DNA of 48,176 nt from a virus (IMGVR_UViG_3300011116_000287:1-48176), one strand, 5' to 3'. Counted from the first letter of the stretch, positions 10,113-48,176 are shown. The notes: a model not told the origin generated them from the sequence alone. Made by a program: numbers and translations.

Positions 10113-10127
10113 TTCATACTGTATGAA
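10113..10127. repeat. TTCATAC-T-GTATGAA palindrome, copy 1
   Basis: Exact 7+7 dyad with a one-base centre, 130 bp before the first early gene. First of 13 copies in the window. Confidence 0.85.
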
Positions 10128-10178
10128 AATGATACGGGCTGGTGCTATCCCGTGCAAGATGTTATAGGATGATGCATA

Positions 10179-10232
10179 ATTCGTCTAACGAATCAGGGAT
10201 TGCATTGCATATCGCAATGTGCGAATGATTCG
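10179..10232. repeat. operator-like inverted repeats before first early gene
   Basis: ATTCGT-CTA-ACGAAT (10179-10193) is followed by CGAAT-G-ATTCG (10222-10232), sharing the CGAAT half-site; between them is ATTGC-N5-GCAAT. The cluster ends about 26 bp before the ATG at 10258, where a repressor of that gene would be expected to bind. Confidence 0.45.
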
Positions 10233-10257
10233 TTATATTCCTTGAAAGGGAAACATC

Positions 10258-10767
10258 ATGAGTGCAATTACTATTGCTTCTATTGCTTCAACTATTGCAA
10301 CCAACTTGTTGGGTGAAATCAAACTCGATGCTGAGAAAGCATCGTTGCGTGAGTCAACCAATATGCTAGTTGCTAAGTTGCACGCTGAGAAAGTTGTTGT
10401 AGGTCGCTTGGGCAAAAACCCTTGCGCTGTTGCGTTGGCTTTTCACTCTACACTCACCGAAGGTGGCGTTGCGAAGGGTACAGCGAACAACTACTTAACT
10501 ACTTTCAAAAATGCTGTTGCTACTGGTAAACCAATTACTGATTGGAATACTCAACGCACCAACGGCAAAAAGAAGGGTAATGCAAAGGGTAAGGGTAAAT
10601 CGACTCTCTCCAACTTGTTGGTGAAAGCGTTTAACCATGACGAAGGCAAATCGTTTGAAGCATTATGCGAAAACATAATGAAACAATATGAGGATGCACA
10701 ATTCGACACTATCTATGATGCATTTATTGACTACTTAAAGTCAGAAGGTTTTGAAATTACAGCGTAA
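10258..10767 (+). CDS. first early gene, unknown function
   Basis: 169 aa. A helical N-terminal half (roughly residues 1-95) is followed by a very basic linker (GKKKGNAKGKGKS, near 103-115) and an acidic helical C-terminus. The basic linker could touch nucleic acid, but no named domain is recognised. It starts with AAAGGG upstream, stands alone in its transcript, has a strong terminator (10785-10808), and is flanked on both sides by the TTCATAC-N-GTATGAA palindrome and other dyads. Autoregulation, or being the palindrome-binding protein, are inferences to test. It is the leftmost rightward gene and likely early. Confidence 0.75.
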   Translation: MSAITIASIASTIATNLLGEIKLDAEKASLRESTNMLVAKLHAEKVVVGRLGKNPCAVALAFHSTLTEGGVAKGTANNYLTTFKNAVATGKPITDWNTQRTNGKKKGNAKGKGKSTLSNLLVKAFNHDEGKSFEALCENIMKQYEDAQFDTIYDAFIDYLKSEGFEITA

Positions 10768-10768
10768 T

Positions 10769-10783
10769 TTCATACAGTATGAA
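10769..10783. repeat. TTCATAC-A-GTATGAA palindrome, copy 2
   Basis: Exact copy that begins 1 nt after the stop codon of the 10258-10767 gene and directly abuts the following terminator. Confidence 0.85.
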
Positions 10784-10784
10784 A

Positions 10785-10808
10785 ACCCCGCTTCGGCGGG
10801 GTTTTTTT
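10785..10808 (+). terminator. rho-independent terminator after the first early gene
   Basis: CCCCGC-TTCG-GCGGGG: a 6-bp GC stem with a UUCG loop followed by eight Ts. It isolates the 10258 gene from the repeat array to its right. Confidence 0.9.
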
Positions 10809-10823
10809 TCGCCCAAAATTTTT

Positions 10824-10850
10824 GATACCTGTATCGAAGATACCTGTTTC
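10824..10850. repeat. GATACCTGTATC dyad and partial copy
   Basis: GATACCTGTATC at 10824-10835 (half-sites GATAC/GTATC) is followed at 10839-10850 by the near copy GATACCTGTTTC, 15 bp apart. A third full copy starts at 11045, and a reverse-oriented copy lies at 20421. Confidence 0.6.
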
Positions 10851-10926
10851 CGTAGTCCGCCATACAACATCTTGTGGCGTGCCGTAGTTTGCCGTGCTGC
10901 GCGCGGGCGATGTAACACACTACAAC

Positions 10927-10941
10927 TTCATACAGTATGAA
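10927..10941. repeat. TTCATAC-A-GTATGAA palindrome, copy 3
   Basis: Exact copy in the origin-like array, 19 bp before the first copy of the 23-bp repeat. Confidence 0.85.
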
Positions 10942-10960
10942 TATGCTAATCCGCTTCGAA

Positions 10961-10983
10961 ACCTGTATCCTTGACGCGTGCCA
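10961..10983 (+). repeat. 23-bp direct repeat, copy A
   Basis: Begins ACCTGTATCC and ends GACGCGTGCCA; identical to 11048-11070. With the palindromes it forms a repeating unit of about 85-90 bp. Confidence 0.85.
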
Positions 10984-11011
10984 CACCGATTAGATTACAA
11001 GATACCACAAT

Positions 11012-11026
11012 TTCATACTGTATGAA
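11012..11026. repeat. TTCATAC-T-GTATGAA palindrome, copy 4
   Basis: Exact copy, 85 bp after copy 3 and 21 bp before the second 23-bp repeat. Confidence 0.85.
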
Positions 11027-11047
11027 AATAACCTATATTTGCTTGAT

Positions 11048-11070
11048 ACCTGTATCCTTGACGCGTGCCA
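11048..11070 (+). repeat. 23-bp direct repeat, copy B
   Basis: Identical to 10961-10983. Here the preceding bases extend it to a complete GATACCTGTATC dyad at 11045-11056. Confidence 0.85.
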
Positions 11071-11101
11071 TACATACCAAGACATTGAGACCTGTAGCGT
11101 T

Positions 11102-11117
11102 TTCATACCAGTATGAA
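11102..11117. repeat. TTCATAC-CA-GTATGAA palindrome, copy 5 (two-base centre)
   Basis: Same half-sites but with a two-base centre, the only such copy. It changes the helical phase of the half-sites by one base pair, so it may be a weak or different site. Confidence 0.75.
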
Positions 11118-11130
11118 ATTGATAGGCGTT

Positions 11131-11145
11131 TTCATACAGTATGAA
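11131..11145. repeat. TTCATAC-A-GTATGAA palindrome, copy 6
   Basis: Exact copy 29 bp after the start of copy 5, the closest pair in the window; last copy before the AT-rich element. Confidence 0.85.
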
Positions 11146-11220
11146 AATGTCAAAGCGTAATAAGCACGGATAACCTCTATTTAATTCAGCAATATTCTCT
11201 GCACGGGAATATTATAAAAC

Positions 11221-11448
11221 CCTTATGCATCAAGCACTTACGAGCGTTTGCACCCCTATTATTCTATTATTCTATAAAAAAATATATATACACCCCTTTT
11301 TAATTTTCTAAATTTTTATCTATCAATGGGTTTATGTATGTAGATTCTTATGAGTTTGTGTTCGTTCGTTTTCTCTCGCTCAAATTCCCAAAATCACGGA
11401 ATATTAGAATATTACCCGCAAAAACACCAAAAAAGCCTTATGCATCAA
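11221..11448 (+). repeat. 13-bp direct repeat pair CCTTATGCATCAA
   Basis: Copies at 11221-11233 and 11436-11448, each followed a few bases later by ACTTAC and preceded by AATATTA-type sequence, so the similarity extends beyond the exact core. They flank the AT-rich element at 11256-11330. Confidence 0.7.
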
Positions 11449-11547
11449 CAACTTACATTTATACCCGCCCCTAGAATATTGCAGAATAAAGCAGAGGTTT
11501 CACTAAAACATACTGCACAATAACAGTTTATTCTGCATAGTTTTGAC

Positions 11548-11576
11548 TTGACAAGGGTATGTAAAGGTAGTATAAT
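11548..11576 (+). promoter_or_regulatory. perfect-consensus sigma70 promoter
   Basis: TTGACA (11548-11553), 17-bp spacer, TATAAT (11571-11576). Transcription should start near 11583 and run through the hairpin-rich stretch into the 12279 gene group. A palindrome copy lies about 30 nt downstream of the expected start. Confidence 0.9.
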
Positions 11577-11612
11577 GGGGGCTGGTTTGGTGATATTACG
11601 CACTAACCGATT

Positions 11613-11627
11613 TTCATACAGTATGAA
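11613..11627. repeat. TTCATAC-A-GTATGAA palindrome, copy 7
   Basis: Exact copy in the transcribed leader, about +30 from the perfect promoter at 11548. Confidence 0.85.
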
Positions 11628-12050
11628 AATGCTCTTTAACAACTTGCTAACTATGCGCCTTTACAAGCGCAGAAAAAACCGCCCCTCGGAACTAATGTTA
11701 ATACGAGAAGCATATAGTTGGAATTGGGTTGTATATAGGATGGATTGCGAAGCCCACGATATACAACTACTTGTGATATCTCCCTATGTGAATGTGGCGT
11801 GTGGTAGTCAGTCCACGCATTATTGCGGTGTAGTAAGTAGTGTATGTCTCATGTGATACCGAACACGATAGCGTAATGCAATGCCAAGTAGATACTGCCT
11901 AAATGTGTGGTTTGCTCTGTGTGGAAACGCACAACAAACCTAATGTGTGCAAGTGTATGCGAGAGCGATAGTTCACTATCCATTGCTGGGCATCAAGCCT
12001 GAGAACTAAAGCCGAACGCATATCAACAGCCACAAGGAAAGCAAGCCGAT

Positions 12051-12065
12051 TTCATACTGTATGAA
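12051..12065. repeat. TTCATAC-T-GTATGAA palindrome, copy 8
   Basis: Exact copy inside the hairpin-rich untranslated stretch, 213 bp before the 12279 gene. Confidence 0.85.
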
Positions 12066-12278
12066 ATTGGGAGATGTGCTAACGACAAACACTATCGCAG
12101 TTAGTAGTGCCAAACAATATTAATCAGGACTAACTTATAACGACTGTATGTGTGTTGGCTCACACATACACGACAGCGTGTAGCACATACATATGTGGAC
12201 ATCTTGATGGACATATATAGAGAGTGTGTGCTATGCGGTGGCGTCTTGCCATCGTTAACTACCTTGAAAGGGTAAATC

Positions 12279-12464
12279 ATGACTTCTTTGCAAAAACAAA
12301 TACGCAATTTAGTGGAAGCGCAAGGGTACATACATATCAATGTGGGCAAGGGAAGCCCTGCGACTAGGGCAACACTTAAAGCCTTGCGGAGAGCGGGGTA
12401 TGCCTGTATTCATCGTGGGTATCACGGGCTCATGGCGGTGTATCAAGTAACAAAGGAAATCTAA
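12279..12464 (+). CDS. small basic protein, unknown
   Basis: 61 aa, basic, with the segment GKGSPATRATLKALRRAGYACIHRGYHG predicted as helix-turn-strand. It could be a small nucleic-acid-binding or winged-helix-like protein, but no family is recognised. It follows the long untranslated leader and has GAAAGGG 7 nt before the ATG. First in a run of small genes spaced a few bases apart. Confidence 0.6.
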   Translation: MTSLQKQIRNLVEAQGYIHINVGKGSPATRATLKALRRAGYACIHRGYHGLMAVYQVTKEI

Positions 12465-12466
12465 TC

Positions 12467-12727
12467 ATGACTAACACAACACAAACACCAACACTTTATA
12501 TCGTGGCTTACTGGTTGCCATTTCCATCATCGGAATATGGTGGCGTACAAATTGTTATAGCGGAGTCAGATGCCGAGTGTGAGCGCATGATTGTTGAGGA
12601 AGTGGATGGGTATCACCGCACCAAGTATCCACACTATCCCCAAAGCATCGCTAATAGAGTTAAGGAAGCCAAGCGTTTCCCTGTGGACACCGAACAGCGT
12701 GGTGTAGTGCATCGATTCTTAACTTGA
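12467..12727 (+). CDS. small hypothetical protein
   Basis: 86 aa, alpha/beta mix, beginning with a hydrophobic strand (TLYIVAYWLPF), then an acidic helix (ESDAECERMIVEEVDGY) and a basic helix. AAAGGA lies upstream and the start is 2 nt after the preceding stop. No family recognised. Confidence 0.6.
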   Translation: MTNTTQTPTLYIVAYWLPFPSSEYGGVQIVIAESDAECERMIVEEVDGYHRTKYPHYPQSIANRVKEAKRFPVDTEQRGVVHRFLT

Positions 12728-12741
12728 AAGGAAATCTAATC

Positions 12742-12900
12742 ATGAATAAATTACAACGCCAACAACTCAAGCGTAAACATACTGATACATGGTACGGGTT
12801 TGTGCAAGAGCAACCTAAAAAGAAAGCCGACATTTCATACAGTATGAAATTGGAACGGGAGAAATTGAAACTTGAAACTAGCGGAGGTAAATGGAAATGA
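12742..12900 (+). CDS. small very basic protein carrying a palindrome copy
   Basis: 52 aa, Lys/Arg/Gln-rich (MNKLQRQQLKRKHTDTW...). A good GAAAGG site precedes the ATG and the stop overlaps the next gene's ATG (ATGA). A TTCATAC-A-GTATGAA palindrome (12834-12848) lies inside the frame and encodes the residues around ISYSMK. Function unknown. Confidence 0.55.
   Translation: MNKLQRQQLKRKHTDTWYGFVQEQPKKKADISYSMKLEREKLKLETSGGKWK
12834..12848. repeat. TTCATAC-A-GTATGAA palindrome, copy 9 (inside a gene)
   Basis: Exact copy in the coding sequence of the 12742-12900 gene, about 49 bp before the zinc-finger gene at 12897. Confidence 0.85.
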
Positions 12901-13127
12901 CTGATTGGAAAGAGTGCATAGATTGTAAAGATGATATGCCGACTGCCCGATACCAAGCGTTCTGCATATCCTGTGAGCGTGTCCGTGAGCGCACCGCACA
13001 AGCAGAGCGCAAATCGTGGACTGTAGTGCAAGAGTATGGCAAGGGATGTTATCAGTTTGTTACATCTAGCAACGCCAGACAAGTCCTAACACAAACAAAC
13101 CAAAAGAACTTGAGGAGTGATATATGA
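12897..13127 (+). CDS. small protein with TraR/DksA-like zinc finger
   Basis: 76 aa. The N-terminus carries CIDC and, 15 residues on, CISC, with the DDMPTARYQA stretch between them, resembling the CxxC...CxxC zinc finger of TraR/DksA-type proteins, which bind RNA polymerase's secondary channel. The long coiled coil of DksA is absent, as in phage TraR-like proteins. I start at the ATG at 12897 (ATGA overlap, GGAGG 9 nt upstream); an ATG at 12891 is the alternative. A role in redirecting host RNA polymerase is inference. Confidence 0.6.
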   Translation: MTDWKECIDCKDDMPTARYQAFCISCERVRERTAQAERKSWTVVQEYGKGCYQFVTSSNARQVLTQTNQKNLRSDI

Positions 13128-13306
13128 AAGGATATCCCGAACACTTGAGTGGTGCAGATATGAAACAGGAACTCATAGCAACCATCACAAAACTAATGTG
13201 GGCAACCACGGGCGAGGTGCGGTTTACGCAAGAACAGAAAAAGGAACTTGCAAGCCGTGCCGATGGACTGCTTGAGATGTTTAAGCGTGACTTCATTGTT
13301 AACTAG
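13124..13306 (+). CDS. small hypothetical protein
   Basis: 60 aa, mostly helical, hydrophobic core typical of a small folded protein (MKQELIATITKLMWATTGEVRFTQEQ). ATGA overlap with the preceding stop and GAGG upstream. No family recognised. Confidence 0.55.
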   Translation: MKGYPEHLSGADMKQELIATITKLMWATTGEVRFTQEQKKELASRADGLLEMFKRDFIVN

Positions 13307-13316
13307 GAGAAAGCAA

Positions 13317-13586
13317 ATGAAACTCAGAGCAATTAAGAACAGGGCGTATGTAATATCACAACGCATTGCTATGCGTAACTTGTGGAAGCATGAGGTCGTA
13401 GCGTCTGTGATGGGTGCATTGAAAGATGTGGGTTTTGTGCATGACACAAACAGAGAGACAAAGTTTGTTCCACCAATATCTTTAAACAAGATTATTTATG
13501 AAAGGAGACTAGGCGATACGGTTTTGAATAAAGAGAATGTGATGCTTAACTATGTAGTAACACCTAACTTTTTGGAGGTCAAATGA
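13317..13586 (+). CDS. small hypothetical protein
   Basis: 89 aa, basic. The true start is probably the ATG at 13317, with AGGAG 7 nt upstream; a longer frame would run into the preceding gene. Helical N-terminus (KNRAYVISQRIAMRNLWKHEVVASVMGALKDVGF) then a strand-rich part. No family recognised. ATGA overlap with the next gene. Confidence 0.55.
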   Translation: MKLRAIKNRAYVISQRIAMRNLWKHEVVASVMGALKDVGFVHDTNRETKFVPPISLNKIIYERRLGDTVLNKENVMLNYVVTPNFLEVK

Positions 13587-13738
13587 AAAAATATTTTGTA
13601 ATTGGGTATGACCCAAGCGTGGACAGATTCATTCTGTTGAAACACGACTACTTCGATAGTTATGAGGATGCACATGACTACGCACTAGGGTGTGCCGAAG
13701 GACTTAGTGCGTTTGTTGTAGAAGAAATTAAGGAGTGA
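13583..13738 (+). CDS. tiny hypothetical protein
   Basis: 51 aa starting MKKYFVIGYDPSVDRF, with acidic composition and a small alpha/beta look. GGAGG 5 nt upstream and an ATGA overlap with the preceding stop support it. No family recognised. Confidence 0.55.
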   Translation: MKKYFVIGYDPSVDRFILLKHDYFDSYEDAHDYALGCAEGLSAFVVEEIKE

Positions 13739-13741
13739 TAT

Positions 13742-14005
13742 ATGAAAAGGCAAATAAGATTTAAATACAGCGCACCCATACCCAAACGCAACACGACAGT
13801 ACAGAAAGCGTTTCGGATATACACAAAGCCTGAGTACCCTGACCCCAAAGTAAAGCAGACAAGCATGATGGCGTGGCGGTATGACAGGGATTTAAACAGA
13901 CCGCAATTCCCAAGCAAGCGCATACGATGGGCAATAGGTTTCATCCGTGCATTCGGTTCACCACATTTCTTTAAAGGTTCAAACAAGGGGGCAGAAAATG
14001 ATTGA
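13742..14005 (+). CDS. small basic hypothetical protein
   Basis: 87 aa, rich in Arg, Lys and Pro, probably partly unstructured, ending FFKGSNKGAEND. AAGGAG precedes the ATG. It overlaps the start of the next gene by 8 nt. No family recognised. Confidence 0.5.
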   Translation: MKRQIRFKYSAPIPKRNTTVQKAFRIYTKPEYPDPKVKQTSMMAWRYDRDLNRPQFPSKRIRWAIGFIRAFGSPHFFKGSNKGAEND

Positions 14006-14183
14006 AGTATCTATAACTGAGGTTGTCTTATTCGCATGGGGTTTCCTGATGACTGCTTTGTATTTCAAGGCAAGGCATGAGGAACACATGGTGCGTACTG
14101 TATTCATGCACTTTGTGGAGAATCCCAAAGCCCGTGAGGAAATGGTTAAACAGTTTGAGAAGTCAAAGGCAGAGATGGTTTGA
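13998..14183 (+). CDS. small single-pass membrane protein
   Basis: 61 aa. Residues 8-22 (VVLFAWGFLMTALYF) form one likely membrane segment, followed by a charged cytoplasmic helix (KAREEMVKQFEKSKAEM). Start chosen at 13998 with AAGGGG upstream. Possibly an early membrane-acting protein such as a superinfection-exclusion factor, which is speculation. The perfect promoter at 14180 overlaps its stop codon. Confidence 0.55.
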   Translation: MIEVSITEVVLFAWGFLMTALYFKARHEEHMVRTVFMHFVENPKAREEMVKQFEKSKAEMV

Positions 14184-14208
14184 CAGGCTCTGTGCAATCT
14201 GTTATAAT
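14180..14208 (+). promoter_or_regulatory. perfect-consensus sigma70 promoter for the ATPase/VWA cassette
   Basis: TTGACA (14180-14185), 17-bp spacer, TATAAT (14203-14208). Expected start near 14215, with a palindrome copy about 34 nt downstream, the same arrangement as at 11548. Confidence 0.9.
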
Positions 14209-14248
14209 GTAGTTTGTTTAGTTGATAGTGTGTGTAAGTTGATGTAAA

Positions 14249-14263
14249 TTCATACTGTATGAA
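14249..14263. repeat. TTCATAC-T-GTATGAA palindrome, copy 10
   Basis: Exact copy in the 5' leader of the 14291 gene, 27 nt before its ATG. Confidence 0.85.
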
Positions 14264-14290
14264 AACATCTTTTTTTGAAAGGACTTAATC

Positions 14291-15169
14291 ATGATTGAAA
14301 ATGTATCCCGTGTTAGTAGTTCGGCATTGATTGTTAACTTGTCTATATCCGTATGGACAGGGCGTAAGTTGGATAAGCGGGTGAGTGAATCCGTAGACCA
14401 ACAGAACAACACCAAAGGCAGAGCGGGTAACTACCACAAGAATCTGTTAGCGGGTTCGGGTAAGTTGGAAGAGATAACCAAGACTGCCAACGCTATCCGC
14501 ACATGGTTGTATAACTGCACCCAGCCTTGGGGTGACAACGGTGACCGACTCTTACCCATGAGTAATTTGGTGGACTTCAAGTCACGCCTGACAACATACG
14601 AACAGGAGTTCGCTACATCTGTAAACAACTTCCTTACAGACTATGACAATCTTGTCTCTGCGTCTGCATTCCAACTAGGTGACTTGTTCAATCGTGACGA
14701 GTACCCTAGCCGTGAACACATTACATCCAAGTTTGGATTCCGTTACTCATTAGCCCCATTGCCAACATCAGGTGACTTCCGCATAGATATTGCGGAGGAG
14801 GGGCTCAACGAGTTGAAGAATCATTACGAGGGCGTAATGCAAACACGGGTAAATGGTGCAATGCAAGATGCGTGGGACAGACTGCATGATGTGTTGTCAC
14901 GCATGAGTGAGCGACTGACTCCTGATGTGGATGAGAACGGGGAGGAGAAGCGCAAGATATTCCGTGACTCACTTGTTGAGAACGCAATAGAAGTTTGTGG
15001 GTTGTTGAAACACTTCAACATTACTAATGACATAAGACTAGAAGAAATGCGTAGGCAGTTGGAGGATGCCATGCGTGGTGTAGATGCGTCTAGTCTGCGT
15101 GAGAGCGATGTTCTGCGTGAGCAGACAAAGCGCAAGGTGGATGACTTACTGGGTAAGTTTTCTGTTTAA
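14291..15169 (+). CDS. DUF3150-like protein of the MoxR/VWA cassette
   Basis: 292 aa, largely helical. An N-terminal strand (SALIVNLSISVWTGRKLDKRV) precedes helices, then NKLLAG/NYHKNLLAGSGKLEEI-type sequence. The order DUF3150-like protein, MoxR ATPase, VWA/metallopeptidase matches cassettes I know from plasmids and phages, and the ISVWTGRK...AGNYHKNLL pattern recurs in phage copies. It probably serves as an adaptor or substrate of the ATPase; the biochemical role is unknown. Start follows GAAAGGA. A perfect promoter and a palindrome lie upstream. Family name is from memory and moderately sure. Confidence 0.6.
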   Translation: MIENVSRVSSSALIVNLSISVWTGRKLDKRVSESVDQQNNTKGRAGNYHKNLLAGSGKLEEITKTANAIRTWLYNCTQPWGDNGDRLLPMSNLVDFKSRLTTYEQEFATSVNNFLTDYDNLVSASAFQLGDLFNRDEYPSREHITSKFGFRYSLAPLPTSGDFRIDIAEEGLNELKNHYEGVMQTRVNGAMQDAWDRLHDVLSRMSERLTPDVDENGEEKRKIFRDSLVENAIEVCGLLKHFNITNDIRLEEMRRQLEDAMRGVDASSLRESDVLREQTKRKVDDLLGKFSV

Positions 15170-15191
15170 GAAACAAGTTTCGTGGGGCATT

Positions 15192-15206
15192 TTCATACTG
15201 TATGAA
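15192..15206. repeat. TTCATAC-T-GTATGAA palindrome, copy 11
   Basis: Exact copy between the DUF3150-like and MoxR genes, 48 nt before the MoxR ATG. Confidence 0.85.
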
Positions 15207-15254
15207 TTTGCCTTGCGTTTATTTGTGTGTTTTAATTTTTGAAAGGAACTAATC

Positions 15255-16334
15255 ATGGCTATGTACAAATCTTTATCTCTGAAACAAACGGCTGACTTGA
15301 TTGCGGCAGTTGGTGACAAGCAAACTATTCTTGCCCAAGGCGAGATGGGTATCGGTAAATCTTCTATTCTGAAGATGCTAAAGACCATGCCCCAATTCAA
15401 AGACCACTTCTTTTGCTATGTCGATATCACTACCAAAGATGTTGGTGATTTCCTTGTGCCAAAGATTCGCACGATTGATGGTGTTGAGGTTTGCTCATTC
15501 ATTCCTAACGAGGAGTTCGGTATCCACTTTAAGGATAAGAAAGTTGTGCTAATGCTTGACGAGTTGGGCAAAGCCAAGGGTGGCGTTCTCAATGCGTGTT
15601 TGCGTTTGATGCAAGAGAGAGCGTTGGGTACTTACACATTCGAGGGTGTGGTGTTTGCTACAACAAACTTGAGCGTGGAGGGTGTCGGTGATGTAGTCCC
15701 GCCCCATGCACGGAATCGTGTGACTCAAGTTCGAGTGCGTAAGCCCAATGCACCTGAGTTGATGGAGTACGCTATCAACAGTAATTGGAATCCAATTATC
15801 GTGGCAACTATCAACGAGTTCCCTGAGATGCTTGCATCATTCGAGGACTACGAGAAGCCCGAACAAAATCACTACATCAACGACCCAAGGACTGTTCGTT
15901 CTGCGTTCGTGACTCCCCGTGCATTGGACAAGTGTGGCTACATCTTGGACAAGACAATGATTCTTGGCGAGGACATTATGTGTCATGCACTAGCGGGTAC
16001 TGTAGGTGAACCAGCAATGCACAACATCTTGACGATGGTGAAGTTGGATACTCAGTTGGTATCGTGGGATGACTTAATCAAATCACCTACGACTGTCAAT
16101 GTACCTAACAATGGTGCGGCATCTTGTATGTTGGTAGCCAAAGCGGTACAGCGTATCGAGAAGTCAACAATGAATGCGTTCATGGAGTTCTTACCAAGAC
16201 TCAGCAAAGAAGCGCAAGGGTTGTTCGCTAGGACAGTCATGACCGATAACTGCCCCAAGCGTGATGTAGCCGCAACTAATACCAAGTTCGCTACATGGGC
16301 GGCAAGCAATAACTATTTGTTTGCCCGTAAGTAA
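15255..16334 (+). CDS. MoxR-type AAA+ ATPase
   Basis: 359 aa with a full AAA+ set: Walker A GEMGIGKS (29-36), Walker B VLMLDE (98-103), sensor 1 ATTN (135-138) and an arginine-finger region HARNR (151-155). The insert before the finger (NLSVEGVGDVVPP) is MoxR-like; CobS of cobalt chelatase is the best-known relative. MoxR ATPases form hexamers that remodel partners through VWA proteins binding metal via MIDAS. The VWA partner is encoded next at 16397. In phages such pairs are often labelled cobS/cobT without cobalamin function being shown. GAAAGGA precedes the ATG and a palindrome lies upstream. Confidence 0.9.
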   Translation: MAMYKSLSLKQTADLIAAVGDKQTILAQGEMGIGKSSILKMLKTMPQFKDHFFCYVDITTKDVGDFLVPKIRTIDGVEVCSFIPNEEFGIHFKDKKVVLMLDELGKAKGGVLNACLRLMQERALGTYTFEGVVFATTNLSVEGVGDVVPPHARNRVTQVRVRKPNAPELMEYAINSNWNPIIVATINEFPEMLASFEDYEKPEQNHYINDPRTVRSAFVTPRALDKCGYILDKTMILGEDIMCHALAGTVGEPAMHNILTMVKLDTQLVSWDDLIKSPTTVNVPNNGAASCMLVAKAVQRIEKSTMNAFMEFLPRLSKEAQGLFARTVMTDNCPKRDVAATNTKFATWAASNNYLFARK

Positions 16335-16349
16335 GTGAGAGGTGGGGTT

Positions 16350-16364
16350 TTCATACTGTATGAA
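16350..16364. repeat. TTCATAC-T-GTATGAA palindrome, copy 12
   Basis: Exact copy between the MoxR and VWA genes, 32 nt before the VWA ATG. Confidence 0.85.
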
Positions 16365-16396
16365 TTCCCCGTTGTTTTTTAACTAAGGAGGTAACT

Positions 16397-17587
16397 ATGT
16401 TTGTAACACAATCGAGTCAGTTGTCAGCATTGAATCTGATTGAGAGAGCCCATGTGGAGTTGATGAACCACAAAGATACTATGGAGTATGCGGGTGTCAT
16501 CATGGTAGGTAAGTACCGAGTTTCTGAGGATGTACCTACTGCAATGACCAATGGTGTGGACTGTATCTATGGTGATGCGTTCATTCGCAAACTCAGCGAC
16601 TCAGATAGGCGTGGTCTTATTCTTCATGAGAATCTGCACAAAACATTTCAGCATACATTCTTGTGGCAACATCTGTACAAGCAGAATGCCAAGATAGCAA
16701 ACCAAGCGTGTGACTATGTAATCAACATCATTATCAAAGACTTGGAAAAGCAATCGGGTGGGTTCGTTACTCTGCCACAAGGCGGGTTGTATGACGAGCG
16801 TTTCCGTGGCATGAGTTCACAAGAAGTCTTTGACATCTTGATGGATGAGCGTGAGGATGGTGGCTCAGGCGGTGAAGATGGTGAAGATGGTGATGACGAG
16901 GGTGCGGGGTTGGATGCTCACGACTGGTCTGAACTACCCAAGGAAAAGCAAGACGAGATACAGAAAGAGATTGACCAAGCGGTACGACAAGGCGCACTAA
17001 TGGCGGGTAAGTTGGGTGGCAATCTATCCCGTGCGTTAGGTGAGTTGTTGCAACCCAAGGTTGATTGGCGTGAGCAATTGCGTGACTTTGTAACATCTCT
17101 TGCAGATGGTAAGGATGTATCCACATGGCAACGAGTTAATCGCCGTTGGTTACAGCACGATGTGTATATGCCTAGCACATTGAGCGAAACAATCGGGCGT
17201 ATCGTTATCGGTGTAGATACATCAGGCTCTATCGGTGGTGAAGACCTCAATAAGTTCTTATCGGAAGTTCAATCTATCTGTGCGACTGTTAAGCCCGATA
17301 TTGTTGACCTTATCTATTGGGACACCGAGGTAGCCAAGCATGAGGTGTATGACCGAGAGAAGCAAGACAAGTTGGTGCAATCAACAAAACCTGCGGGTGG
17401 CGGTGGTACTGACCCATCATGTGTTCCCGCATATCTTGAGGCTAACCGACTCAATCCCGAATGCGTAATCATGTTGACAGATGGTTATGTAGGTACATGG
17501 GGTACATGGAAACATCCATTGGTGTGGTGCATAGTGGGTGGTAACAAATCAGTTCCATCAGTAGGCGCATCCATCTATGTTGACTGA
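16397..17587 (+). CDS. VWA-domain protein with metallopeptidase-like N-terminus (DUF2201 type)
   Basis: 396 aa. The N-terminal part carries HENLH (77-81), an HExxH zinc motif in a helix (GLILHENLHKTFQHTF). A Gly/Asp-rich acidic linker (near 150-175) follows. The C-terminal VWA domain has a complete MIDAS: DTSGS (Asp274), GGGGTD and LTDGY. This is the DUF2201 layout, the usual partner of MoxR ATPases. AAGGAGGT 6 nt before the ATG predicts strong translation. Its likely job is to pass metal-dependent remodelling by the upstream ATPase onto a target; whether the zinc site cuts protein is unknown. The last codons overlap the next gene. Confidence 0.85.
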   Translation: MFVTQSSQLSALNLIERAHVELMNHKDTMEYAGVIMVGKYRVSEDVPTAMTNGVDCIYGDAFIRKLSDSDRRGLILHENLHKTFQHTFLWQHLYKQNAKIANQACDYVINIIIKDLEKQSGGFVTLPQGGLYDERFRGMSSQEVFDILMDEREDGGSGGEDGEDGDDEGAGLDAHDWSELPKEKQDEIQKEIDQAVRQGALMAGKLGGNLSRALGELLQPKVDWREQLRDFVTSLADGKDVSTWQRVNRRWLQHDVYMPSTLSETIGRIVIGVDTSGSIGGEDLNKFLSEVQSICATVKPDIVDLIYWDTEVAKHEVYDREKQDKLVQSTKPAGGGGTDPSCVPAYLEANRLNPECVIMLTDGYVGTWGTWKHPLVWCIVGGNKSVPSVGASIYVD

Positions 17588-17858
17588 GAAACTTAGGAAA
17601 AGGCGGAAACAAATTTCTGTTCCGCTTACTGACCAAGAAGTTGACGAGCGTTTAGGTTTATTAAATCTAAAAGCAAAAACTAAAAACAAAAACACACCTG
17701 ATACCGACAAAGAAGAGGAGGTATTGCATGAGGTATCGGGTGAGCGTGATGGTATGAAGTTCAAAGCGTTTCTTTATGCAACCGACCCTATGGATGCAAT
17801 GATGCAGTATAAGAAGTTGATAAGTAAAGAAATTAAATTCACGAAAGGAAAGGGGTAA
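17577..17858 (+). CDS. small basic hypothetical protein
   Basis: 93 aa. A basic N-terminus and Lys-rich linker (LKAKTKNKNTPDTDKEEE) precede a folded C-terminus (GMKFKAFLYATDPMDAMMQYKKLISKEI). It starts within the end of the VWA gene (11-nt overlap) and so belongs to that transcript. No family recognised. Confidence 0.5.
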   Translation: MLTEKLRKRRKQISVPLTDQEVDERLGLLNLKAKTKNKNTPDTDKEEEVLHEVSGERDGMKFKAFLYATDPMDAMMQYKKLISKEIKFTKGKG

Positions 17859-17862
17859 TCAA

Positions 17863-18042
17863 ATGAAAATGCATCCCGCATATTGGATAGTTGCAGGACT
17901 ATTCATGAACATATCTTTGTTAATAGGTTGGTCAGGCGATACACCATTGCATCGTTTGGCTTTGGTGTTTGGTGGAGTGTGGGCGGGGCATCTGCTCACC
18001 GAGATTCTTAACTACAACGAAAGGGAGGAAAGCAATGATTAA
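17863..18042 (+). CDS. small two-helix membrane protein
   Basis: 59 aa with two hydrophobic segments (WIVAGLFMNISLLIGW and LALVFGGVWAGHLLTEIL) joined by a short polar turn. GAAAGG lies upstream; the end overlaps the next gene by 8 nt. A small membrane protein of unknown role. Confidence 0.55.
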   Translation: MKMHPAYWIVAGLFMNISLLIGWSGDTPLHRLALVFGGVWAGHLLTEILNYNEREESND

Positions 18043-19165
18043 TCACCACAAAAATGGGTATCGTATTGACCCAAATAAATACAATGAGTTTCTTAAAGTT
18101 TGGTTGCGTAAAACCGCAGAGGAGAAACAAGCGTACTACGAGAACGAGGGGATAGAGCGTTACAACTATCTGTACGATGTGCGTTTGCATGACTACGATA
18201 CTGCAAAGAAGTTTTATCATAAAACTAAACCACTAGGCGGTGCGAGGAAGAAGTTTAATAACGACTTGCGCCCAATGACTGATAGACACCGCAAGGATGA
18301 GGTGTGGTTCAACGAGGGTGATAACTATGGCGTGGCAACTGGTTGGAGTAACACACATTGGAAACCTAACCCACTACCTAAAGACGCTACACCCGAGCAA
18401 GCCAAGAAACATAGACACCACATAATAAGTGGGTACACCGACAACTACAAGAAGTTAATCATGTTTAGACCTGATGGTGTGTTGGAGTTTACGCCTAGCA
18501 ATCATATGGATAACTATGTCACATGGGATGTGTTGGGTGCGACATTGCCCAAGGGTATAGAGTTCGTTCGCTATGGTGCAAAGCGTTATATGAAAGTGGA
18601 CTGCCCAAGCGGTGAGGCTATGCACTATCGTGTATGGGATGGTGTGCAGATGAATTTCATACCGTATGAAAAGGATGGGGTTCGTTACTTTGCACCCGAC
18701 AGAGTGATTGGTGAGAAGAAGTTTCTAATTGATAGGGAGAAGTCTAAGAAAGCAAAGGAGGAAGCGCAAGCGTTCTTAAACTATGCACAGTTCATGATGG
18801 ACTTGCTGACCATAGACCACAAACAATGGTCAAGAAGATATGGCGCAAGAACATGGCTATACAACAAACCATGCTCAAATTATTACCACAACAGTTCTGA
18901 ATTTGAACCAGTTAAGGGTAATTGGTTAGTACGCAAGGAGGGAGAAGAGATAGGTGAGCATTGGATAAAAGGTGTTGAGGCTTTGTGTCTTGTGCTACAC
19001 GATAACGTATATGACCGAGCGAAAGACACCTATGTCCCGATACCCACAACATTTGAGGCGTTGAAGGTATTCGTAAAAAGCAACTTAGCAAAAATGGCTA
19101 GACCTTATAACGAGGTGGAAGTGCCGATAGGCAAACCGTTCTACTCGAACGGCAGAGATATTTAA
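18035..19165 (+). CDS. hypothetical protein, unknown
   Basis: 376 aa from the ATG at 18035 (GGGAGG about 8 nt upstream). Rich in Tyr, Lys, Trp and Asn, probably soluble. No catalytic motif or family recognised. A palindrome with a C centre (18656-18670) lies inside the frame, coding FIPYEK. It sits 20 bp before the 19186 gene. Confidence 0.6.
   Translation: MINHHKNGYRIDPNKYNEFLKVWLRKTAEEKQAYYENEGIERYNYLYDVRLHDYDTAKKFYHKTKPLGGARKKFNNDLRPMTDRHRKDEVWFNEGDNYGVATGWSNTHWKPNPLPKDATPEQAKKHRHHIISGYTDNYKKLIMFRPDGVLEFTPSNHMDNYVTWDVLGATLPKGIEFVRYGAKRYMKVDCPSGEAMHYRVWDGVQMNFIPYEKDGVRYFAPDRVIGEKKFLIDREKSKKAKEEAQAFLNYAQFMMDLLTIDHKQWSRRYGARTWLYNKPCSNYYHNSSEFEPVKGNWLVRKEGEEIGEHWIKGVEALCLVLHDNVYDRAKDTYVPIPTTFEALKVFVKSNLAKMARPYNEVEVPIGKPFYSNGRDI
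18656..18670. repeat. TTCATAC-C-GTATGAA palindrome, copy 13 (inside a gene)
   Basis: Exact half-sites with a C at the centre, inside the 18035-19165 coding region; the most distal copy. Confidence 0.8.
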
Positions 19166-33954: not shown

Positions 33955-33957
33955 TTA
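33928..33957 (+). terminator. rho-independent terminator at the convergent boundary
   Basis: CCCCCGA-CTAATCA-TCGGGGG (7-bp stem) followed by seven Ts on the plus strand. The stop codon of the minus-strand 1966-aa gene lies within the T-run. Confidence 0.9.
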
Positions 33958-36900
33958 ATCGTGCATCTCCATGATGCTACGCTCTATTTTGTCGCGTAGT
34001 TTTTTGTTGATTTGTATTCCGTTATACATATCATCAGATATCTTATCCCGCGCTTCAACGGACTTGCTTAAAGTTTCATCGGTGATGCCAAGGTCGTGCT
34101 TGTCGCTCAATGCAAACAATTTGTCTGCCAGCATATTGGCACGTTCGGTGTCACCAAGGCGGTCAGCAACATAGTATTGCTTCAGTAGTTTTTTGCTCTT
34201 TCCAACAGTCGCATCTTCTACCTTTTTAGCGTAGGCGTTGTCTTCATATTTAGTTAACAAGTCTGCTGGGGCGAACCCTAATACCTGCATCATGGCGTTG
34301 TAGCCGTTAATGTCACCCATTACTGGGTCACCGCGCAAGGTGTTAGCTCCCTCGGTGGCATAACGCACACCCTTCAATATGTTGCGTAGCGCGACAGGTA
34401 GCATAGCCTCGACACCACGCTCAAAGTGACCCTCACCTATCAACTCTTTTCCACGGTAAAAACTGTTAATGATTGAGTATGGCGCACCCAGTATGGCCTC
34501 GGTAATCTGACTCAAGGCACTTGCATCAGCCTTGCCACCCTTGTTCTCGCGGTAGATTAAATCTGTCCAGCCTACACGGTCTGCAATCGCAAGATTTGTG
34601 AAGTGGTTAACGGGGCCTTTAAAAATTAAATCACCAAGGAACGAACGCATGACTGTATCAAAGTCATCGTCATCGTCATCTTGAAGTGAGTTATATGCCA
34701 TCTCTGCAACCCAGTACAAAGGCATGCCTTTTACACCAGCAAATAACCCCGCCATGCCGTACACACCAACAAGTTGCCTACGGGCGGCTTTCATTGCCTC
34801 AACTTCATCGGCAGTCATATTTTTACTGATTGGGAACGAGCGCCGTATGGTGTCAAACAACATATAGTACATAGTGAAGCCAAACCGCTTGAACACAGTA
34901 AGAACTTTACCTATGTCTGAATGACCGATACTGGGCCCAGTTTCTGTGTGACCAGCACCGTGCGTAAACTCAACCATACGTATGGCTTTTTCTATGGCTA
35001 ACTTTTGGGCTTCTTCACCTTTGATACCCTTACTAGCCAATCTTTCCATCTCTAAATCAAACGCCGCAATAGCCGTAACTTCACGATTCATGCGCTCTGC
35101 ATGATGGAACATGAACGCTGAATATGTTGCTACACGCTCAGTCAACGGCACAGCACCGCCTTTTTCTGCTGGTGGTCTATTAGCCGCCTGTAGCGCGTCA
35201 CGTGCAGTAGAGTTTTGCAAGAATCCAAGACCTTTCAACGCCTTGAACAGTTCAGAGTATTCTGCGTTTTTACCTTGACCGAGCAAGTTATCCACGGACA
35301 ACATGGCTTTTTGCTCAACAATTTCACCGTTAATGTCTTTAATAGTACGGGTAAATCCTGATGCCCCATACAACTTTGTTGCTTTCATCAAAGCCGCGCC
35401 AGCCTTGAGGAACCCATATGTACCGCCCAACTGCGGTAGAACAATCATCGGTGTTTGCAACAAGTTAACAGCCGCAGAAGATACGTTACCAGCCAAGTTG
35501 TAATAAAACGCCCCCGTACTTGCATAACGCGCCCAGTCGGACACGCTGGGGTTCATGGCGTATTTCTGCCGAGCCTCAAACTCTTTTATAAATTCAGCAC
35601 CAATATCGCTCTTAGTACCACGCAGTTTACCTACAGTTTCACGCATTTTGTCAATGTTGTTTTGCAGTATTTCGCTGTACCGCATACGAGACAACTGCCG
35701 TGCAGTAGAACTTGTTACGTTAGAGAAAGCCAAAGCCGCATCGTTGATGTATCCAGCCGTACCCTTACGCTTGGTAAATGATTTGAGCAGGCTTGTCTCA
35801 GGCATCGCACTAACAATAAGTTGTAGGAAGTTTTCTATACCATCACTGCCAACGCCACTGTCTTTCATTATCTTGACAATCTGCCCAGCAATAGAACCTG
35901 ATGGCACATTACGTGATTGCAGTTGGTCAAATCTAGACTTTTCTTCAAAGTCAGTGTGTCCTTCTGCCTCCAATTTGGCTTTCTTTTGAGCGCGTTCAAT
36001 TTGCGACTCAAACAACTCAGTCGCATGTTCATTTGTATTTTTATCTAGATAAGTCAGGAAGTATGTACCTTGACGGTACAAGGGCGCATAGTGTTCTACG
36101 CCAGCCGATGTAATCTGGTCAATGATCTTGTTATATACAGACAGCGCCTTCTCTTTATCGTCAGGGAACTTAACCAACAAGTTGTTGCGAATTGACTCTT
36201 TCAATTCTTTGAACAACACCTTATACGAGTTGAAGAGGTCATCGTATAACTTCTTTTCTGTTGGGTTGAGTCTGTTGTACTGAGCTTTAACTTCCTGATA
36301 ATTGATGTACTTTGCAGTATCTTTTTTATACCGAGCCACAGTTTCCGCATCGGCATTTGGGTTTACATCTAGACGGGTAGACTCGTTGACCAGCCTAGAC
36401 CATGCTTCATAGCGGTCTGTTTTAGCAAACTCTTCCAAGCGTTTATGCAACGGGTTGAGTTTCTCCATCATATTTTCGTAGTAGCCAGCCATAGCGTTGA
36501 CGTTATCAGCAAACTCAATCGCCTCTTTGCCAACTATCTTGCTTGCCACTTGCCCCAACGCAGACAGATTGAGGAACTTACGAATGACTTGGCGACCACC
36601 AACCCCCAACTTTTCCATGTTGGCTAATGTTTTAACCGCAGTATCTTCACTCATGATAGTGCCGCCACTGGTAACACCGCTCACGTACTTAAATATGTTG
36701 TCAGCAAAACTAGGGTCGTGTATCGACTGTGCATACAAAGTATCACCCATACGAATTGCTGGGGGTGTACTAATAATCTGATTGGCTAGGCGGTCAGCCG
36801 CATCCAAGGCATCGGTCTGCCGTGGCTGGAAGCCAAGAACCCTACGCAACACATTCATAATCTTGTCCCACATAGACAAGACAGGCGAGTCTGTACGCAT

Positions 36901-39855
36901 CTCTTTTAGTTTAGTGCGTAACTCTGGGTTACTCCACAACTCTGCGGCAAACTCTTGTAGGTTAGTAGCGCCATAAGCCCCGTCAAGGCTACCCTTAACT
37001 TGCTTGAACAACTTGTCTAGTTGCCGAGTTACTGGATGTGATGGGTTAGCAAGTATGTGAGACAGAGCGGCATGTGCGCTCTCATGCATTACTTCATAGT
37101 TAGTAGCGTCTTCTCTCAAATAGATTGTGTTGGTCTTGGGGTCGTACTTAGACTCTTTTGCGCCGTACACAACATTCACATTACCAACATACTTAGCCAA
37201 GTTGTCCGCAATTTTGCTCAACGAATCAAATTCTGTAGTCTCAGCCAAATGCCCCAAGGCATCCACCAAGTTGCCATTGCGTAGTGAGCGCAACACGCTG
37301 GGGTGAGATGATCTGTATAACGAGGCTACGTCTGGTGACGCATACATGTCATTAAAGCCAGAGTCAATAATGTCGTCAATACTCTCAACGCCCATGTATT
37401 CTTCCAAGGCTTTACGCGCCAACTTCTTGGCATCCTTACGTGTTCGTTTACTGGCTTTTTTACCAAGGTCTTCTTCAATTTCTGACTTAGCTATTGCTTG
37501 AGATACTGGAGACAGTTCGTCTTGCTTTACTTGCTCTTTGATATTTTTCTTCAACGTCTGCTGTTTCTCAGCCTTTGCTTGATAGCGCTTGCTTTCCGCT
37601 TCTTCTTTTGTGTACTTGGCTATCCATTTGTCTAAATACGCAACGGTCTCAGGTGACAGGTTTGCACGTGCCCACTTATCAGCATTTACAGCATGAGTGC
37701 CGCCCTGCCCTTTGTGTTGCTTCATTTCTGCTTCTGTGAACGCAACCTCTGGGCCTTCGGGGGTCTTCTCAAACGCCTTCATGTTAGCCCTGCGATACGC
37801 AGTCTTTTGACGTACTAGGTCGTGGGCAATAGAACGAATGGCAAAGTCGGGATAATTGCGCCCAAAGTATGCACGTGCATCAGTCTCAAGTTCAGTATGC
37901 CCACGCTTCTTCGCTTGGTCACCCAATTTGTTGACGATGGTGTCTATGTCTTTGGTGAAGTTAGGAGTTGTGTCAACCTTGGGGGTTGGTTTAAGTTCTA
38001 GACTTTCAGCAGTTGTATCAGCAACTGGTTTTTCCACCTTTGCGGCAGGGGTAGTTTTAGGCTTAGACTCAATAGTCTTATCTTGTGTAGCCGTATCTTC
38101 TGTTTCAAGTTCTGATTGAAGTTCACGTTCTTGCTCTAGCCACCCCGATTGGAAGTACATGGCGAACTCAGATTCACCATATGGATGATCGTCAATACCT
38201 TTACCTTCAAGTAAGGCTTGCTTACCTTCCTCAAATGCTTTCTCTGGGTCTACTGCAGGGGCTGTCGGTTTTTCTCCAACATCAGTTCCTGCAACATTTT
38301 GCTCAGTAGAAACCACTCTAGGTCGCTCACCTCCTCCAATTCCTTCGGTGGGGGCTCCTTGACTGGTTGCGCTATCCACTGTAGCGCCTTCTCCACTTGG
38401 AGTTGTGATAGGCTGTCTAGCATTAACTGCTCCTTGTAAATTAGCACGTGCCGCCTCTTCCACAAGCCGTGGGTCTAGCGACTTTATTAAGGCATCGTAT
38501 GCCTCTTCATTTATCTTGCCCTTAAATGCAGGATTTTCAAGAGTAGTAATGAGTTGTTTTACACCTTCGGGTGTATTTAAATCTATATTTGCAAGGCTAC
38601 GCGCTATCTTAGAGCGCTTGTTCAATCCCAACTGCGCGACTACATCAATCGCAGGTTTCTCAGGCTCAACTGCTTCAGCGGCAGGGGGCGTAGGCGCAGG
38701 TAACGCCAAGGTAGGCGCGGCTGGTGGTTCTGTGTAGCCTAATTGTAGTTGTTGCTCTGGCGCTGGCAACGCTAACTGTTCAGATGTTATAGGTTGTTCA
38801 ACTTGTTCTGTTGGACCAGCAGCAGGTTGTTGCTGTCTTGCGTATTCTTGTTTAGCGGCAAAGCCTTTAGCCACACCACCGGGGACACCGAATCCAGCAC
38901 CACCTATAGCACCTTTTACAAATGCTTCTTTGTATTGCTGGATGTTCTCAGGGTCAAATAAACTTTTTGCGCTACCAGCAACTTGTTTAGCGTAAGCACC
39001 TATGGCTTCTTGTGCGGCCTCAGTTAAACCTTCTGTAGCAGCAGCCTCTGCCGCTTCTCTACCAACATACTTCCACACCTTTGGTGCGGCCCGTGAGTCT
39101 TTGGCTAACTCCTCAACAACTTTTAGTTTGCCGTATTTAGTTAGCCCGCTAAACATTTTTGCTGGCAGTGCAGAGTCAAGCACAGCCATTATTCCACCCG
39201 ATAAAGCAGCAACTCCGGGTTCAAACTTACCTGTCTCTTGGTATATACCCTCAAATACTTCGGGGGCGTTTTGGGCAAATGAACCTAAGTACACGCCACC
39301 ATACATACCCTTACGACCTGCGGCTTGGGCACCTTTTTCAATCAAGGCTTTAGTAGCAACTTCGCCTAGCCCACGTTCTGCGGCAACTCTAGCGGCGGCT
39401 GAAGCGCCAGCCCTAGCACCTAATGCCTCAAGACCAATGCCGGGAATTAATGCCGTTCCAACACTGGGTAACAACTCACCACCAGTCTCAGCCACATACT
39501 CTAAGGCTTCTCTTGGGCTACCTACCTCTGTATACGATTTGAAGCGGGTCGGATACTTTTCTTCTAACTCTGCGCGGGTCTGCGCCGCTTCTTCCATTTG
39601 GCGTTTAGCGTAATCACCGCCACCATGTACAAACGCACTAGCGATTCCCGCTGGGATTACGTCTCCCAACGCGATACCTGTTTCTCCCATACTACGCATG
39701 AAACCGCGCTTGGCGATCTCACCCAAACCCAACTCAGGCTTTGGCATGCGGAAGTCATATTTTTGTTCTAGCCTACCAACCAAAGAGTCAAACTCTTTAG
39801 CGGACAAGCCGTCAGGGAACTCTACCTGCCCTAACTTTGGTAGGTTAACAATCAT
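33955..39855 (-). CDS. giant internal virion / polyvalent protein with HExxH motif
   Basis: 1966 aa. The start (VNLPKLGQVEFPDGLSAKEF) is a short domain common at the N-terminus of phage internal virion proteins. Hydrophobic Gly/Ala-rich stretches (residues ~90-350), a Pro/Glu-rich low-complexity linker (~350-640), and an MHESAHAALSH zinc metallopeptidase motif (His924-Glu925...His928) follow, then helical regions and a KRFGFTMYYM region near 1655. This resembles large polyvalent proteins injected with DNA; the motif suggests a protease acting in the host. Order in the block places it among ejection proteins. Precise function is inferred. Confidence 0.7.
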   Translation of the reverse strand: MIVNLPKLGQVEFPDGLSAKEFDSLVGRLEQKYDFRMPKPELGLGEIAKRGFMRSMGETGIALGDVIPAGIASAFVHGGGDYAKRQMEEAAQTRAELEEKYPTRFKSYTEVGSPREALEYVAETGGELLPSVGTALIPGIGLEALGARAGASAAARVAAERGLGEVATKALIEKGAQAAGRKGMYGGVYLGSFAQNAPEVFEGIYQETGKFEPGVAALSGGIMAVLDSALPAKMFSGLTKYGKLKVVEELAKDSRAAPKVWKYVGREAAEAAATEGLTEAAQEAIGAYAKQVAGSAKSLFDPENIQQYKEAFVKGAIGGAGFGVPGGVAKGFAAKQEYARQQQPAAGPTEQVEQPITSEQLALPAPEQQLQLGYTEPPAAPTLALPAPTPPAAEAVEPEKPAIDVVAQLGLNKRSKIARSLANIDLNTPEGVKQLITTLENPAFKGKINEEAYDALIKSLDPRLVEEAARANLQGAVNARQPITTPSGEGATVDSATSQGAPTEGIGGGERPRVVSTEQNVAGTDVGEKPTAPAVDPEKAFEEGKQALLEGKGIDDHPYGESEFAMYFQSGWLEQERELQSELETEDTATQDKTIESKPKTTPAAKVEKPVADTTAESLELKPTPKVDTTPNFTKDIDTIVNKLGDQAKKRGHTELETDARAYFGRNYPDFAIRSIAHDLVRQKTAYRRANMKAFEKTPEGPEVAFTEAEMKQHKGQGGTHAVNADKWARANLSPETVAYLDKWIAKYTKEEAESKRYQAKAEKQQTLKKNIKEQVKQDELSPVSQAIAKSEIEEDLGKKASKRTRKDAKKLARKALEEYMGVESIDDIIDSGFNDMYASPDVASLYRSSHPSVLRSLRNGNLVDALGHLAETTEFDSLSKIADNLAKYVGNVNVVYGAKESKYDPKTNTIYLREDATNYEVMHESAHAALSHILANPSHPVTRQLDKLFKQVKGSLDGAYGATNLQEFAAELWSNPELRTKLKEMRTDSPVLSMWDKIMNVLRRVLGFQPRQTDALDAADRLANQIISTPPAIRMGDTLYAQSIHDPSFADNIFKYVSGVTSGGTIMSEDTAVKTLANMEKLGVGGRQVIRKFLNLSALGQVASKIVGKEAIEFADNVNAMAGYYENMMEKLNPLHKRLEEFAKTDRYEAWSRLVNESTRLDVNPNADAETVARYKKDTAKYINYQEVKAQYNRLNPTEKKLYDDLFNSYKVLFKELKESIRNNLLVKFPDDKEKALSVYNKIIDQITSAGVEHYAPLYRQGTYFLTYLDKNTNEHATELFESQIERAQKKAKLEAEGHTDFEEKSRFDQLQSRNVPSGSIAGQIVKIMKDSGVGSDGIENFLQLIVSAMPETSLLKSFTKRKGTAGYINDAALAFSNVTSSTARQLSRMRYSEILQNNIDKMRETVGKLRGTKSDIGAEFIKEFEARQKYAMNPSVSDWARYASTGAFYYNLAGNVSSAAVNLLQTPMIVLPQLGGTYGFLKAGAALMKATKLYGASGFTRTIKDINGEIVEQKAMLSVDNLLGQGKNAEYSELFKALKGLGFLQNSTARDALQAANRPPAEKGGAVPLTERVATYSAFMFHHAERMNREVTAIAAFDLEMERLASKGIKGEEAQKLAIEKAIRMVEFTHGAGHTETGPSIGHSDIGKVLTVFKRFGFTMYYMLFDTIRRSFPISKNMTADEVEAMKAARRQLVGVYGMAGLFAGVKGMPLYWVAEMAYNSLQDDDDDDFDTVMRSFLGDLIFKGPVNHFTNLAIADRVGWTDLIYRENKGGKADASALSQITEAILGAPYSIINSFYRGKELIGEGHFERGVEAMLPVALRNILKGVRYATEGANTLRGDPVMGDINGYNAMMQVLGFAPADLLTKYEDNAYAKKVEDATVGKSKKLLKQYYVADRLGDTERANMLADKLFALSDKHDLGITDETLSKSVEARDKISDDMYNGIQINKKLRDKIERSIMEMHD

Positions 39856-47824: not shown

Positions 47825-48176
47825 TTCTTACTGAATGACTGTGTACCAAACCAGAACGACACAACGGACGCCCAAATGATCTGAGTCTCGTTATCCCACA
47901 GCAGGTCTAACGCCACGTCAAACGGCACTTCCTTGTGATAAGCGAACCAGAAACCAAAGATTTCTACAAAGGCAAACAGGATAAACAGACCATAAGTTAT
48001 GGCGGGGCGCACCATAGCACGGGCGTTTGTTACCCACTGACTAGCCCCTTGACCAATAGCGATATCGTGGGCGTACAAGGCTTGGCGCTCTGCTAAGGCA
48101 GTCTGCGCGTTGGTTACCTCTGCGTTGATCTGTATCTGCTCTGTCTGTATATGCTCAATCCGCTCTTGGGCTTCTA
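47821..48176 (-). CDS. 3TM-type holin, 5' end cut by window edge
   Basis: At least 117 residues in frame to the window end. A Gln/Glu-rich N-terminal helix (EAQERIEHIQTEQIQINAEV) precedes RPAITYGLFILFAFVEIFGFWFAY and IIWASVVSFWFGTQSF, two membrane segments, ending SKK. This matches the 3TM holin layout. It would release the endolysin to the cell wall. The true start lies beyond the window. Confidence 0.75.
   Translation of the reverse strand, partial: EAQERIEHIQTEQIQINAEVTNAQTALAERQALYAHDIAIGQGASQWVTNARAMVRPAITYGLFILFAFVEIFGFWFAYHKEVPFDVALDLLWDNETQIIWASVVSFWFGTQSFSKK

Follow-up and report, generated by a model that had tools for sequence, protein, structure and literature searches.

Dispersed perfect palindromes in the early region of uncultured aquatic phages and a small protein with a predicted helix-turn-helix that co-varies with them

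The window analyzed in this work is a 48,176-nt stretch of viral DNA whose early region contains genes and transcription signals interspersed with palindromes. The genes and signals are as follows.

10152 to 10180, plus strand: putative promoter of gene 10258, with a GTGCAA -35-like box inside the conserved TATCCCGTGCAA, a 17-nt spacer and a CATAAT -10 box; kept in 47 non-identical relatives
10258 to 10767, plus strand: gene 10258, encoding a candidate site-binding protein of 169 aa, with an AF2-predicted helix-turn-helix (HTH) at aa 57-89, co-variation with site class and no family match
10786 to 10809, plus strand: intrinsic terminator after gene 10258, CCCCGC-TTCG-GCGGGG-TTTTTTTT, read from the sequence and kept in relatives
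11548 to 11576, plus strand: perfect sigma-70 promoter, TTGACA-17-TATAAT, 12/12 match
14180 to 14208, plus strand: perfect sigma-70 promoter, TTGACA-17-TATAAT, 12/12 match, of the DUF3150-AAA-VWA operon
14291 to 15169, plus strand: DUF3150-like gene (PF11348 at 24.6 bits, slightly below the 24.9 cut-off), apparently controlled by the array
15255 to 16334, plus strand: MoxR-like AAA ATPase gene (phrog_1297)
16397 to 17587, plus strand: VWA-domain (DUF2201) gene, by family match

The -35 match of the gene 10258 promoter is weak, and the TATCCCGTGCAA box (10146-10157) is strongly conserved 5' of this gene in nearly all relatives. No convincing genes were seen in the roughly 1.4 kb at 10810-12278, a stretch that is AT-rich in its 11.2-11.6 kb part, lies near the GC-skew minimum and is under a perfect promoter; an Rfam search of this region returned no family. 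A second repeat family, GATACCTGTATC / GATACCTGTATCCTTGACGCGTGCCA(C/T)AC, lies among the palindromes at 10822-11098. It is a two-base-centre dyad having ATAC..GTAT in common with them, and may represent iterons or a second operator. Further along the window, positions 33955-39855 encode a 1966-aa protein that has an antirestriction match of the DarB-like kind and also, weakly, matches the N4 virion RNA polymerase (E 6e-4).

The whole record contains 12 exact copies of the palindrome TTCATACNGTATGAA and, besides these, one copy with a two-base centre.

10113 to 10127, unstranded: palindrome 1, exact; 5' of the gene 10258 promoter, centre at about -68; upstream placement kept at -56 to -81 in relatives
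10769 to 10783, unstranded: palindrome 2, exact; 1 nt past the gene 10258 stop codon, directly 5' of the terminator; placement the same in several relatives
10927 to 10941, unstranded: palindrome 3, exact; non-coding region
11012 to 11026, unstranded: palindrome 4, exact; non-coding region
11102 to 11117, unstranded: two-base-centre palindrome TTCATACCAGTATGAA; identical sequence present in relatives L119, L124 and L080
11131 to 11145, unstranded: palindrome 5, exact; non-coding region
11613 to 11627, unstranded: palindrome 6, exact; about +31 to +45 relative to the 11548 promoter
12051 to 12065, unstranded: palindrome 7, exact; non-coding leader
12834 to 12848, unstranded: palindrome 8, exact; within the small ORF 12742-12900
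14249 to 14263, unstranded: palindrome 9, exact; about +35 to +49 from the 14180 promoter, 27 nt 5' of the DUF3150-like gene
15192 to 15206, unstranded: palindrome 10, exact; separates the DUF3150 and AAA genes
16350 to 16364, unstranded: palindrome 11, exact; separates the AAA and VWA genes
18656 to 18670, unstranded: palindrome 12, exact, C centre; within ORF 18035-19165

These are the 13 sites and coordinates of the initial annotation, which had found none elsewhere in the window. When up to three mismatches to TTCATACNGTATGAA were allowed, the sole extra match was at 47825, with three mismatches, which is chance level. No dinucleotide shuffle of the window reached 13 copies; the initial annotation had put the chance expectation for a fixed 14-base pattern in 48 kb at far less than one. 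Eleven copies had been called intergenic, and indeed only those at 12834 and 18656 fall within predicted ORFs, which are small or poorly conserved. The array had also been said to occupy one third of the genome; since complete relatives are 60-67 kb long and have about ten more core genes, the 48-kb record is probably an incomplete fragment and the array spans about a seventh of the genome instead. No description of the motif was found in the literature searched.

An exact-motif scan of IMG/VR gave more than 12 contigs with 3-12 copies each. Relatives were gathered with the 10258 and AAA (15255) proteins as queries, yielding about 120 loci, and the palindromes were then sought afresh in each locus. 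Among the early genes of related uncultured aquatic phages without an integrase, one perfect palindrome recurs 5-16 times; this holds for most close relatives (dozens of IMG/VR contigs), each with one dominant dispersed palindrome in the same early region. Absence of conservation in relatives, which the initial annotation would have taken as refutation, was thus not observed. Six conserved genes, making up 41.5% of the region, contain none of 303 sites in 34 loci (P = 2e-71). The palindromes of close relatives fall into discrete classes, with half-sites TTCATAC, TTCGTAC, TTCCCAC and TTCATAT, plus TTCCTAC in L125; more distant phages have TCCCTAT, TCGGGA-NNN and CTAGAC-NN. In whole-record searches the TTCGTAC palindrome was absent from records of other classes and its copies lay nearly all in the early region. 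A near DNA search among phages gave no match for the window, and no exact-palindrome array was present in the examined stretches of the cultured relatives HTVC023P, HTVC027P, 023Pt_psg01 and DSL-LC04.

Consensus or near-consensus promoters (TTGACA-17-TATAAT) ending 30-49 bp upstream of sites numbered 53, against about 2-4 expected, and palindromes 6 and 9 of the window (11613 and 14249) start at about +31 and +35 from the two perfect sigma-70 promoters. Two features of dispersed-operator (stoperator) systems are present: near-identical intergenic sites confined to the early region, and positions 3' of promoters at which a bound protein would stand in the path of the polymerase. The gene 10258 promoter is arranged differently, relatives having the form TATCCCGTGCAA-N16/17-box with the first palindrome at -56 to -81. 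Strict helical phasing of this first site was considered; the clusters were suggestive and intermediates exist, and no claim is made. In several relatives a site lies 1-6 nt past the gene 10258 stop codon and is followed by a strong terminator.

The upstream site is at the distance of a class-I activator, and in 19 records, most of them near-complete, no tyrosine recombinase, serine recombinase or DDE integrase, no ParA or ParB beside parS-like sites and no lysogeny genes were found. Both observations would suit a 10258 protein that reads the sites as an activator, or to time the early-to-middle step in a strictly lytic cycle, rather than as a repressor. We consider this unlikely: activators do not sit at about +31 to +49 of a consensus promoter or between the genes of an operon, and consensus promoters require none. 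The many sites in 5' leaders and between genes would also agree with hairpins formed in the transcript, serving antitermination of the nut/boxB kind or RNA processing and bound by the 10258 protein or another factor, and the N-boxB pairs of lambdoid phages co-vary too. This explanation is very unlikely, because the symmetry extends to the one base at the centre, and from class to class the innermost pair changes in a complementary way (C-N-G to T-N-A) although it could not pair in a 15-nt hairpin; a 1-nt RNA loop being impossible, the change fits dyad-symmetric reading of DNA. In addition, the first site lies upstream of the gene 10258 promoter, centres of A/T or C/G are seen either way round, and distant relatives have centres of 2, 3 and 4 bases.

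Gene 10258 is the first rightward gene and is flanked by palindromes, and its family was present in all 11 long genomes compared. The AF2 model of its product is all-helical, with a helix-turn-helix-like pair at aa 57-89. The protein had no match in named phages, Pfam, PHROGs, PDB sequences or PDB folds; in the absence of a PDB structural match, the HTH assignment rests on the AF2 helices and on the co-variation described below. A scan of GTDB genomes revealed no relatives of the protein, hence no prophage and no host assignment. The 10258 family is, by inference, an uncharacterised family of DNA-binding proteins.

Site class could be told from the turn and second helix of the predicted HTH in 50 non-identical homologs. 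The signature was [KQ]TYLPTF in 11/11 proteins of the TTCGTAC class, KTAQ-NYLSL in 11/11 of the TTCCCAC class and [KR]VYL in all those of the long type of the TTCATAC class; TTCATAC phages have two HTH types for the same site. The recognition helix differs little between the TTCATAT and TTCATAC classes, so that part of the specificity must lie elsewhere. When site class was predicted from protein sequence by leave-one-out nearest neighbour, aa 44-92 of the 10258 protein were correct in 0.91 of cases (0.89-0.97 on matched rows), compared with 0.77 and 0.69 for its own N-terminal and C-terminal ends, 0.81 for VWA, 0.72 for TerS, 0.65 for DUF3150, 0.64 for both AAA and portal and 0.62 for TerL. 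Since the classes partly follow ancestry, these figures do not come from independent events. The class changes needed were 12 on each of the AAA, DUF3150, VWA and TerL trees, 13 on the TerS tree and 10 on the 10258 tree, the AAA tree thus having at least 12 switches. Three proteins had been named earlier as possible readers of the site, of which only 10258 co-varies with class. The products of 28741 (HTH_17) and 30483 (XRE-like, previously given as 30513) were ruled out, their recognition helices being essentially constant across classes. The 10258 protein is thus the best candidate for reading the palindromes, although binding is inferred.

Most weight in the co-variation is carried by near-isogenic pairs. 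Between L031 (TTCATAC) and L150 (TTCCCAC), all five L031 sites were swapped at the homologous L150 positions, with flanks largely kept and several of them unchanged or nearly so. The identity of the two phages was 98% for DUF3150, 99% for AAA, 97% for TerS and 100% for TerL over a 79-aa end fragment, to which the L150 locus extends (99.4% at full length against the sister L147). The 10258 proteins were only 81% identical, with the differences concentrated at aa 65-115. The pairs L146/L149 and L157/L156 resemble this one. A host regulator reading the sites, the classes standing for different hosts, is barely conceivable: hosts are unknown and class could follow host, but the switches occur between phages 97-100% identical elsewhere and the change is concentrated in the HTH of a single phage protein. 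In the mosaics L149, L147 and L155 the regulator agrees in class with the proximal sites, but the distal sites still belong to another class, some of them decayed. Judged from sequence, this is what recombination of a regulator cassette followed by slow catch-up of the distal sites would leave. Such joint replacement of every site and of the presumed recognition segment of a single small protein points to a phage switch protein, uncharacterised so far, that changes its DNA code in step with all its sites.

The initial annotation had proposed that the palindromes bind a dimeric phage regulator or a replication initiator. The first is strongly supported by the perfect dyad, conservation, concerted change and HTH co-variation; there is no need for an initiator, which agrees less well with sites lying at fixed distances 3' of promoters and between operon genes. 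An origin or partition function, with the protein as replication initiator or centromere-binding protein, might draw on the cluster of sites, among other short repeats, in the 1.4-kb non-coding region, which is AT-rich and close to the GC-skew minimum. It remains highly improbable, as the sites run over 8.5 kb across an operon at promoter-linked positions, and neither ParA nor ParB was found in the 19 records.

We favor, with a probability of about 0.7, the reading that the palindromes are operators of the 10258 protein, acting by roadblock repression in a switch able to change its specificity. The sites, their conservation, the promoter geometry, the concerted class switching and the co-variation were computed; binding, dimerisation, repression and purpose are inferred. 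The protein, as a dimer, would read the half-site TTCATAC through its predicted HTH (aa 57-89) and bind about 31-49 bp past the strong early promoters, which are of host type, as well as in the gaps between early-operon genes. There it would most likely stop elongating host RNA polymerase, as a roadblock or stoperator, turning the early region off. The site of its own promoter being upstream (-56 to -81), the gene 10258 transcript would not be roadblocked, and the site and terminator directly past the stop codon may insulate the gene from those below. The logic inferred from this layout is of a protein sparing its own gene and blocking the genes downstream. The outcome could be an immunity-like or an early shut-off switch, with a specificity that might be altered when the HTH recombines or mutates along with its sites. 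The direction, repression or activation, is inferred from geometry alone, and the site at -56 to -81 is also compatible with self-activation.

Repressors with many sites have been described in temperate phages, chiefly in the cluster A mycobacteriophages. The array resembles such dispersed-operator immunity systems, with a candidate reader from an apparently new protein family, repression being inferred. In the temperate Streptomyces phage phiC31, which has a serine integrase, the repressor reads dispersed perfect inverted repeats in early intergenic regions; the window shares this type of site, but the sequence differs and no integrase was found. Switching of the whole site set between close relatives is not known for phiC31. 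The c1 repressor of P1, a plasmid prophage with ParA/ParB, has more than ten operators scattered across the genome, as the array does; its 17-bp site is asymmetric, unlike the symmetric sites here, whose phages lacked detectable ParA/ParB. The cluster A phages L5 and Bxb1 also have many copies of one short site over early genes, roadblock-like placement and co-evolution of motif and repressor (PMC6550527, PMC9283540). Their stoperators are 13-bp asymmetric sites of the L5 type, most of them pointing the same way and each bound by a monomer, and motif change follows overall genome distance (PMC6550527, PMC9283540). The array does not conform to that oriented 13-bp type: it is set apart by 15-bp perfect palindromes with a 1-bp centre, a protein without a match in Pfam, PHROGs or PDB, abrupt changes of specificity from one genome to a near-identical one, and the absence of signs of integration.

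A broader proposal, which we put forward tentatively and which may well fail, is that integrase-less, apparently virulent phages have their own family of immunity-like repressors, the full set of 5-16 operators switching repeatedly between near-identical genomes by recombination of the HTH cassette and distal catch-up. This suggests an immunity-like switch run by phages without integration genes. If true, superinfection competition among lytic phages, or an unseen dormant state, would drive diversification of immunity types outside classical lysogeny. How the DNA code of a regulator with at least ten sites changes without a dead intermediate is a long-standing question, which the near-isogenic pairs and the mosaics with lagging sites make directly testable; the alignment shows amino acids tracking bases.

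A similar layout was found in phages whose first early gene product is not matched by the 10258 profile. This gene is flanked by GATATAC-N palindromes in L187 (3883-4697), by CCGTAC-N4 palindromes in L180 (4195-5378) and by GGGTAC-N2 palindromes in L198 (2710-3390), and it is rightward in the more distant relatives L180 and L187. The Planktothrix phage Pag-Yong1 (OL906435), a cultured distant relative and cyanophage, has 15 dispersed copies of GGTTCAG-N-CTGAACC in the part of the record searched (OL906435.1 15001-65000, locus L287). As in the window, ATPase and VWA genes are their neighbours, and most copies occupy short intergenic gaps of the early region; the site is a different one, and the first early gene product (UMO76074) gave no match to the 10258 profile. 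The layout seen in L180, L187 and Pag-Yong1 thus extends beyond the 10258 family.
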